Below are positions 27,341 to 30,398 of a stretch of 64,000 bases of DNA, piece after piece; positions within the stretch are counted from its first letter, which is position 1, and each line of letters begins with the position of its first letter. The notes beneath the pieces are model-generated. The model was not told where the DNA came from. It did no database searches and saw only the letters and a program-made list of their open reading frames with translations. Source of the stretch: Candidatus Altimarinota bacterium (GTDB lineage: Bacteria > Patescibacteriota > Gracilibacteria > BD1-5 > UBA6164); contig JAQVGG010000002.1 of the NCBI GenBank assembly GCA_028696815.1, positions 1-64,000 on the forward strand, read 5' to 3'. The position numbers were made by a program, and so were the translations under genes.

Positions 27341-28504
27341 ATGTTTGAATTTAAACTAGAAAATACTGACTCTAACGCTAGAGCTTGAGAGTTTTTTACT
27401 GCTCATGGGAGTTTTAAAACTCCTGTTTTTATGCCTGTATGAACAAAAGCAAGTGTAAAAGCTATAACAAAAGAAGATTTAGATAATATGTGAGCTGAAA
27501 TCATATTAAATAATACATATCACCTATATTTAAGACCATGAGATGAAATAGTAAAAGATTTTTGATGAGTTCACGAGTTTCAAAATTATCACAAACCAAT
27601 ACTTACAGATTCAGGATGATTTCAAGTATTTTCATTGTGACAAACTGCTTGAAACTGATACAAAAGTAGTGAAAGTCTTGTAAAAATTACTGAAGATTGA
27701 GTACATTTTAGAAGCTTTATAGATGGTTCAAAACATTATTTTACTGCTGAAAATGTGATGGATATACAATCAAATCTTTGAGCTGATATCATAATGGCAT
27801 TTGATGAATGTGCACCTTGAGATAGTACAAAAATATATGCAAAAGCTGCTATGGATAGAACTCATAGATGGGCAGTTAGATGTGTAGAAAGATGGAAAGA
27901 AAATGAAAAGAAAAGAGCAGAGGCTTGATTGTATCCTCAAGCACTATTCCCTATTGTGCAATGAGTTATATATGATGATTTAAGAAAAGAGTCAGCAGAG
28001 TTTATAGGAAATCTTGATACACCTTGAGTTGCAATATGATGATTGTCAGTTGGTGAATCCAAAGAAGATATGTACAGAATACTTGATATAATGAAGGATA
28101 CGCTACCAGAAAACAAACCAAGATACCTAATGTGAGTATGAACTCCAGAAGACTTGATAGAGTGAATATATAGATGAATAGATATGTTTGATTGCGTTTT
28201 ACCTACTCGTCTTGGTAGACACTGAGTTGCGTTTAGCAGCACTTGAAATATAAAAATCAAAAATGAGCAATGGAAAACATCAAAAGAGCTATTAGACACT
28301 GACTGTGATTGTAAAACATGTAAAAATTACACAAGATGATATCTTCGTCATCTTATAACTGAAAACGAGATACTTTGAATGCACTTACTAAGTTATCATA
28401 ATCTTTATTTTCTTGTAAATCTAGCTAAAAAAGCAAGAGTTGCTATTCTGGAAAACAGATTTGAAGAGTTTAGAGAAAAGTTTTGGGAAAAATATAAGGT
28501 TTAA
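27341..28504 (+). CDS. tgt: tRNA-guanine transglycosylase
   Basis: Tgt swaps G34 of GUN anticodons for preQ1 or queuine. The 387-residue protein has ARAGEFFTAHG, LTDSGGFQVFSLG with the catalytic aspartate near residue 90, [40 protein letters not shown] with the nucleophile region, and the zinc site [17 protein letters not shown]. All are complete. Under the standard code the gene would break into many pieces. No queuosine biosynthesis gene is in view, so the base is probably salvaged. A short tandem repeat abuts the start. Confidence 0.96.
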
Positions 28505-28522: not shown

Positions 28523-29098
28523 ATGTTTACTTGAATTATAAGCTCAAAAGCAAAAATATTATCAATAGATAACTGAACTTTCACGATTGAAAATACTTTT
28601 TGAAGGAATATGGAGATATGAGAAAGCATAGCTCATGACTGAGCTTGTATGACTATTGAAAAAGCGGATAAAGAAAAATATAGCTTTTTTGCTATGAAAG
28701 AGAGTCTTAAAAAAACCAATTTTTGAGAGAAAAAACCTTGAGATTATTTCAATGTAGAAGAAAGCTTGAGATTATGAGACAAGATGGGATGACATTTTGT
28801 TACTGGACATGTTGATACAACTTGAAAAGTAGAAAAAATAGACTTTATAAGTGATGGTTCATTGATTTTGTATATTAATTTTGATAAACTATACAAAAAC
28901 AATATAATCGACAAATGAAGCATAACAATCAATTGAGTAAGTCTTACAATAGTTGATAATTGAGATGATTTTTTATCTGTAAGTCTTATTCCTCTAACTC
29001 AAGAAATAACAAATCTTTGAGAATTAAAAGTTTGAGACGCTGTAAATCTTGAATTTGATATGCTTGGTAAATATGTTCAAAAAATAACTAAAAATTAA
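28523..29098 (+). CDS. ribE: riboflavin synthase alpha subunit
   Basis: This enzyme dismutates two 6,7-dimethyl-8-ribityllumazine molecules to riboflavin. The 191-residue protein starts MFTGIISSKAKI and shows the duplicated lumazine-binding fold: first half with GESIAHDGACMTIEK and GGHFVTGHVDTTGKV, second half with KGSITINGVSLTIV and FDMLGKYVQ. Length is slightly below the usual 200-215. It begins the ribE-ribH-ribF-like run, 18 nt after tgt. Confidence 0.94.
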
Positions 29099-29121: not shown

Positions 29122-29577
29122 ATGTCTGATTATAAAACTCCTCTAAAAGATATAAACAAAATAGATAAAAATATAAAAATAGTTTTTATAACTTCAGAAT
29201 TTAACAGAGATTATACTTCTAGATTGGAAGCTTTAAACGAACACTTTTTAAAAGAAAACTGATTTTCAAATATTGAAAGATACAATGTACCTGGAGCATT
29301 TGAAATACCTGCTTTCACAAAAAAAATAATTGAGATTAAAAAACCTGACTTAATTATATGTTTATGAGTAGTTGTTAGATGAGAAACTACTCACTATGAT
29401 ATGGTTGCTTGAGAATCAGCTAGAGGTATTATGAATATAAGTATTGAAAGTAAAACAGCAATGATTAATTGAATACTAACTTGTGAAAATTTCGAACAAG
29501 TAGAAGCTAGAGTAAATTATTCAGCAGCAGTTAGTTGATTAAATTTACTTAGTGAATTAGTAAAAATAAGAGGATAA
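29122..29577 (+). CDS. ribH: 6,7-dimethyl-8-ribityllumazine synthase
   Basis: RibH condenses 5-amino-6-ribitylaminouracil with dihydroxybutanone phosphate. The 151-residue protein contains ITSEFNRDYTSRL, the GAFEIPAF substrate loop, CLGVVVRGETTHYDMV with the catalytic histidine, and GILTCENFEQVEAR. This is the standard short lumazine synthase that forms pentamers or 60-mers. It sits 23 nt after ribE. The genes that make its substrates (ribA, ribB, ribD) are not in the window. Confidence 0.95.
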
Positions 29578-29632: not shown

Positions 29633-30388
29633 ATGTATCAAATAATTAAATGAACTGTTATTAGATGAAAAACTCTTTGAAGCAAGATTTGATTTCCTAC
29701 AGCTAATATAGACCTTGATAATAAAGACATAGAAGATGGGACATACAAACTAAACTTAATAATTGATGGAAATATATATGCTTGAGCATGAGTTTATCTA
29801 AAAGAAAAATGACTTTTTGAAGCTCATTTTTTTGGTTTTGCAAGTGATATTTATTGAAAAGAGATAGAAATAGTACTTTTGTATAAGATAAGAGAAAATA
29901 AGAAGTTTGATTCTCTAGAAGAATTAAAAAATCAGATACAAAAAGATGTAGATTTTGCAAAAAGCAACACTGATTATATAGTCACTTTTGGAACTTTTGA
30001 TATAGTTCACCCAGGACATGAATTTTATCTAAATAATGCGAAGAAGTATTGAGACAAGCTGATAACTATAATAGCAAGAGATGGAAATGTAGAAAAACTA
30101 AAAAATACTACTCCTCTTCATGATGAACTAACTAGACTTGAAAATATAAAGAAACTATGAGTTTCAGATATAGTTTTACTTTGAGATTTAGATGATCCTT
30201 TAAAAGTAATCAAACAGTACAAGCCAAAAGTGGTATGTCTTTGATATGATCAAGTAGGTTTTATTGAGCTACTTAATAAATACATTAAAGAAAACAATCT
30301 TGAAACTCACATCATCAGACTATCTCCTTACAAAGAAAATATCTATAAATCATCTATTTTAAAACAAAAAAGAGACTTAAAAAAATAA
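29633..30388 (+). CDS. riboflavin kinase / FAD-synthetase-like nucleotidyltransferase fusion, reversed domain order
   Basis: The 251-residue protein should convert riboflavin to FMN and then FAD. The N-terminal ~115 residues are a bacterial flavokinase domain: GTVIRGKTLGSKIGFPTANI with the PTAN motif, YAGAGVYLKEKG and FEAHFFGFASDIYGKEIEI. The C-terminal ~135 residues are a Rossmann nucleotidyltransferase with TFGTFDIVHPGHEFYL (HxGH) and ARDGNV, closer to archaeal RibL or glycerol-3-phosphate cytidylyltransferases than to bacterial RibF. Canonical RibF has the nucleotidyltransferase first and the kinase last, so both order and type differ here. The ribE-ribH context supports a flavin role. The exact nucleotidyl substrate is inferred. 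Confidence 0.82.
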
Positions 30389-30398
30389 GCCTCTTTTT
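30366..30398 (+). terminator. terminator of the riboflavin gene run
   Basis: The stem AAAAAGAG / CTCTTTTT, with inner CTTA / TAAG pairing, overlaps the stop codon. Confidence 0.65.

Follow-up and report, generated by a model that had tools for sequence, protein, structure and literature searches.

The gene at 29633–30388 (+) of the window, that is, of the whole 64,000-nucleotide stretch analysed, encodes a putative fused riboflavin kinase/RibL-type FMN adenylyltransferase. Our main reading, to which we assign a probability of about 0.88, is that the protein is a bifunctional FMN/FAD synthase that arose in one family using genetic code 25 (Gracilibacteria/Absconditabacteria-type) by the joining of separate riboflavin kinase (RFK) and RibL-like nucleotidyltransferase (NT) genes, in the order kinase–NT. 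The conversion of riboflavin to FMN and FAD is essential in all cells, and bacteria use one well-known enzyme for it, RibF. Here, a bacterial half and an archaeal-type half have apparently been put together, in the opposite order, to give the same enzyme pair.

Read with code 25, the TGA-as-glycine code of Absconditabacteria (SR1) and Gracilibacteria, positions 29633–30388 form a single open reading frame of 251 amino acids with an ATG at 29633 and 12 in-frame TGA codons. Under table 11 the same interval yields no open reading frame, and that reading was rejected. TGA codons 7, 12, 16 and 20 occupy all four glycine positions in the flavokinase consensus (G-x-V-x-x-G-x-x-x-G and G-[FY]-P-T-x-N; PMC2573891), and support for TGA as glycine therefore comes from within the gene itself. 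The source genome (G000), placed in Patescibacteria by its genetic code, its size and its relatives, comprises 1.19 Mb in 41 contigs and is 98.8% complete and 6.2% contaminated.

The original prediction described a bacterial flavokinase domain placed first, the reverse of the order in RibF, and the family assignments bear this out. Pfam Flavokinase (PF01687) covers residues 5–111 (E 3.5e-27; 95.5 bits, cut-off 19.6), followed by CTP_transf_like (PF01467) at residues 118–226 (E 5e-14; 53 bits, cut-off 21). The kinase part is assigned to residues 1–111 (29633–29965, +) and the NT part to residues 112–251 and the stop codon (29966–30388, +), with the HxGH nucleotidyltransferase domain extending over residues 115–247. 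An AlphaFold model of the fusion, based on a 23-row alignment, has a pLDDT of 88 and a pTM of 0.84, and structure searches with this model return RibF/RFK structures and 3glv as the top matches.

The kinase domain is an ordinary bacterial/eukaryal-type flavokinase of the ATP-using kind. It carries GTVIRGKTLG, GFPTAN, the catalytic E63 and IRENKKF (consensus [LI]RxNxKF), and the predicted domain aligns with the RFK part of 3op1 at a VIA Z score of 18.8. GFPTAN (residues 20–25; 29690–29707, +), which fits the published consensus, corresponds to the ATP/Mg site of RFK. Across 23 aligned fused proteins, the invariant kinase residues include G7, G12, G20, T23, N25, E63 and R87. In the RFK tree, the fused kinases cluster with two separate kinases from the same order (L057 and L061; support 99/88).

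Riboflavin kinase is joined to other partners in several of the genomes surveyed. It is fused to 5-formyltetrahydrofolate cyclo-ligase in two genomes of the same class (G046 and G242; L166:997-1851 and L169:1492-2373), shares a single open reading frame with riboflavin synthase in G082 (L156:763-1878) and is fused to an ABC-transporter ATPase in G057 (L170:676-1854). The last arrangement suggests that flavin uptake may be coupled to trapping. Similarly long open frames surround the kinase in G019 and G039. In G331, which belongs to the same order, the kinase is followed by about 300 amino acids with no Pfam match that look SIS (sugar isomerase)-like by eye (L061:1489-2724).

For the NT domain, the best match in the PDB by sequence is 3glv from Thermoplasma volcanium (E 8.5e-21), with TagD next (E 1.5e-5). 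The same protein is the best structural match (Foldseek E 2e-11; VIA Z 18.7, 1.9 Å over 122 residues), while the predicted domain also aligns with TagD (VIA Z 17.4) and HldC (VIA Z 14.6). The fold alone cannot tell the RibL, TagD and HldC families apart; the tree does. In an NT tree of 114 rows and 140 columns (no tree here exceeds 140 columns), with outgroups that were hand-picked and come mostly from Patescibacteria, the fused and standalone NTs of the candidate phyla radiation (CPR) form one patescibacterial clade (96/98). This clade joins the archaeal RibL clade (99/89) at a branch supported at 95/96, with TagD, HldC and HldE-like sequences outside; the archaeal rows carry the label RibL by homology, since they come from lineages whose known FAD synthase is RibL and are the closest homologues there. 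Immediately outside the fused NT clade lie two NTs of the same order (L058 and L059; 81/80).

Profile scores and motifs point to the same placement. An archaeal RibL profile gives higher scores than the outgroup profile for 23/23 fused and 43/43 standalone CPR NTs, with 107 against 69 bits for the fusion of G000. The motif G-x-[DN]-Q is present in all 93 RibL-side sequences (23/23 fused, 43/43 CPR and 27/27 archaeal) and in none of the 18 outgroup sequences. In the present protein it occurs as LGYDQ (residues 203–207; 30239–30253, +), which corresponds to the nucleotide-binding motif Gx(D/N) and is a diagnostic mark of the RibL side. The HPGH motif lies at residues 126–129 (30008–30019, +), and H.GH is retained in 22 of the 23 fused proteins. 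Invariant NT residues among these proteins include G128, H129, G204-Y-D-Q207 and K239-S-S241, with H126 nearly so. The cysteine pair reported for archaeal RibL is absent, the NT domain having a single cysteine (C202). These cysteines are not universal, since they are missing from many of the archaeal rows and from the Entamoeba enzyme (PMC11423594).

As judged from the tree and these motifs, the NT domain is a putative RibL-like enzyme, sister to archaeal RibL and neither TagD-like nor HldE-type. The original prediction had likened it to archaeal RibL or to glycerol-3-phosphate cytidylyltransferases; the first likeness holds, whereas the second does not, the TagD family model (TIGR01518) scoring 36.6 bits against a cut-off of 165.4. 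The tree also places 3glv within the archaeal RibL clade. The deposited entry names 3glv an LPS core biosynthesis protein; by tree and motif it is a predicted RibL-type FAD synthase.

The genomic setting is that of flavin metabolism. On the same strand, the order is tgt (27341–28504, +; PF01702, 506.7 bits), the first gene of an apparent operon and syntenic also in several relatives, then ribE (28523–29098, +), ribH (29122–29577, +) and the fusion, followed by a hairpin over its stop codon. ribE encodes a riboflavin synthase of 191 amino acids (PF00677 in two copies, 135.6 bits) and ribH a lumazine synthase of 151 amino acids (PF00885, 121 bits). The hairpin (30367–30398) has 13 pairs with A and T tracts; it is a pattern match, called on the minus strand and near-palindromic, and is a possible terminator closing the operon. 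Between 24000 and 34000 there is no match to any Rfam family, the FMN riboswitch included.

Neither RibB (PF00926) nor the RibD reductase domain RibD_C (PF01872) is matched in G000, a genome 98.8% complete that does have ribE and ribH. In three relatives (G303, G290 and G320; L231–L236), a search of about 20 kb around the operon likewise found no homologue of ribA, ribB or ribD. Gene content thus seems to indicate that G000 keeps the last two riboflavin steps and the cofactor enzyme without the early steps, or that early genes were missed. One possibility for the precursor supply of such a truncated pathway is uptake from a host.

We infer the catalytic activity, ATP as donor, the split-to-fused direction and any channelling between the two sites. 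The N-terminal flavokinase would convert riboflavin, supplied by ribE/ribH or by uptake, and ATP to FMN, and the C-terminal RibL-type HxGH domain would then convert FMN and ATP to FAD and PPi. There is experimental precedent for the second step. A RibL homologue from Entamoeba has measured FAD synthase activity (PMC11423594), and RibL from Methanocaldococcus is a further biochemical precedent. According to PMC11423594, M. jannaschii RibL is reported to accept CTP as well, with a rate 40% of that for ATP, which leaves some room for a relaxed donor specificity, in which FMN is made and the flavin dinucleotide is formed with CTP, or with CTP as well as ATP. The Entamoeba homologue is ATP-only (PMC11423594), and the present sequence holds nothing that decides the donor; we regard a CTP-using enzyme as unlikely.

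A cytidylyl- or adenylyltransferase acting on another substrate, such as glycerol-3-phosphate, heptose phosphate or a sugar, and fused by accident or for regulation while FAD is obtained otherwise, appears still less probable than a relaxed donor. The good fold matches to TagD and HldC would be compatible with it, as would the genomes that have the NT without a kinase and the sub-threshold hits to NCBIfam models for HldE/RfaE domain II (TIGR02199, 60.7 bits) and TagD. However, both scores are far under their cut-offs (181.5 bits for TIGR02199), TagD and HldE-like sequences fall outside in the tree, and membership of either family was rejected. The tree and G-x-[DN]-Q place the domain with RibL, and the gene shares an operon with ribE and ribH. 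No further FMN adenylyltransferase candidate was found in G000. This genome has one flavokinase, and its two other NTs have NAD-type motifs by eye, one of them adjoining NAD kinase; both look NAD-type.

A diverged, circularly permuted canonical RibF, with the ordinary bacterial FMN adenylyltransferase shifted to the C-terminus, would account for the same two activities, and the FAD_syn family (PF06574) does give a weak match over the initial 34 residues of the NT domain. That score, 21.1 bits, lies under the cut-off of 27, and TIGR00083 reaches 103 of the 184 bits required on the fusion, mostly from the kinase part. Of the motifs of the canonical RibF NT, FPHP at the flavin site and SSTxxR (PMC2573891, PMC3509593), the domain has no F-x-P-[HQ]-P and, of SSTxxR, only SS, within a KSS motif at the corresponding position (residues 239–241; 30347–30355, +) that is invariant in the 23 fused rows. 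The missing FPHP, thought to hold FMN in RibF, would be expected for a RibL-type domain, but it also means that the FMN site here is putative. The closest relatives of the NT are standalone RibL-like NTs of the same order and phylum, and FAD_syn exceeds its cut-off in only one of 286 sampled Patescibacteria genomes. A permuted RibF is already disfavoured by the family scores and the tree, and we consider it very improbable. Nor does G000 have a canonical RibF elsewhere, family searches finding no FAD_syn above cut-off.

The kinase–NT fusion extends well beyond G000. In a search of 60 genomes, comprising G000 and its relatives, the full-length fusion is found in 22 of the 36 sampled genomes of one family, G000 included, and in a genome of a sister family (G333). 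The homologues in the 22 other genomes span more than a dozen genera and are 44–53% identical in the search, and ribE and/or ribH lies directly upstream in 22 of the 23 loci. Two members of the same family, G292 and G294 (L055 and L056), have an NT match and no flavokinase match; others in the family have no match at all. The fusion is a common property of one family rather than of one genome, and its full-length conservation in 22 other genomes excludes a chance origin. An assembly or reading-frame artefact merging two genes, for which the 6% contamination of the genome bin might speak, is refuted by the same full-length fusion in 22 other assemblies, and the predicted model leaves just three residues between the final helix of the kinase and the strand that opens the NT domain.

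The wider phylum suggests where the two halves come from. In the survey of 286 Patescibacteria genomes, a flavokinase is found in 82 and, with the threshold placed at 86 bits, where the ranked scores show a gap, a RibL-like NT in 86. Both are present in 69 genomes, the kinase alone in 13, the NT alone in 17 and neither in 187 (Fisher p 3e-36, a value that ignores kinship between genomes). Coupling of the two is not strict; FMN salvage or an unrecognised kinase is possible in the 17 NT-only genomes and in G292 and G294. The single genome with FAD_syn above cut-off, G008, is among the kinase genomes lacking a RibL-like NT, and its FAD_syn is a separate gene on another contig than the kinase (L145, L159). 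Kinase and NT genes lie within 2 kb of each other in 9 of 68 split genomes. At L018, L020, L028 and L030 they are adjacent separate genes with the NT upstream of the kinase, opposite to the order in the fusion.

Rather than having been acquired from archaea by G000 alone, the NT occurs widely across Patescibacteria as a gene of its own. Patescibacteria as a whole seem to rely on a split route of kinase and RibL-type enzyme, and one family seems to have fused both in reverse order. The fusion would have arisen from the split pair that other Patescibacteria use in place of canonical RibF. Its making within this order fits the trees, because both halves have separate closest kin there, although the separate kinases L057 and L061 could alternatively be secondary fissions. 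The interpretation in the original prediction is supported. It had proposed an independent fusion for the same two steps and would have given way to an NT grouping with cytidylyltransferases and a separate canonical RibF, neither of which was found.

Among known systems, the protein shares with canonical RibF the same inferred reaction pair, a homologous flavokinase with the same consensus motifs and the placement of both domains on one chain. RibF, however, has the order NT–kinase, an FAD_syn-type NT and about 310 amino acids, whereas the fusion is reversed, has a RibL-side NT and comprises 251. Archaeal RibL, including 3glv, shares the NT fold, HxGH, LG[YF][DN]Q, 35% identity (to 3glv) and a sister position in the tree, but it is a single-domain protein, whereas the fusion carries a flavokinase and lacks the RibL cysteines. 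The archaeal riboflavin kinase belongs to a different, CTP-dependent family. The RibL-like NTs and RFKs of other Patescibacteria are homologous to the two domains and their genes co-occur and are sometimes adjacent; they are nevertheless separate genes and, where adjacent, stand mostly as NT then kinase in those checked. The Entamoeba enzyme EhFADS is likewise a RibL-type FAD synthase that makes FAD experimentally and has a partner RFK of bacterial/eukaryal type, but it is unfused, eukaryotic and ATP-only (PMC11423594). We found no report of a reversed RFK–RibL fusion, or of RibL in Patescibacteria, in the open-access literature.

The fusion gives an already known enzyme activity a new architecture and is backed by a conserved family, its function being strongly inferred. 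Parcubacteria have been reported to lack FAD synthase and ribKL/ribF, though they encode FAD-dependent proteins (PMC4508563). Widespread RibL-like genes paired with riboflavin kinase may explain this puzzle; such genes would escape notice under labels like 'cytidylyltransferase' or, in the case of 3glv, 'LPS core biosynthesis protein'. More broadly, it is likely that a RibL-type enzyme took the place of RibF's FMN-adenylyltransferase half across the phylum and that the code-25 family re-fused the two separate genes in reverse. A bifunctional FAD synthase would then have been invented a second time, independently and perhaps with substrate passed on between active sites that have different neighbours, in cells where the early riboflavin enzymes seem to be missing.
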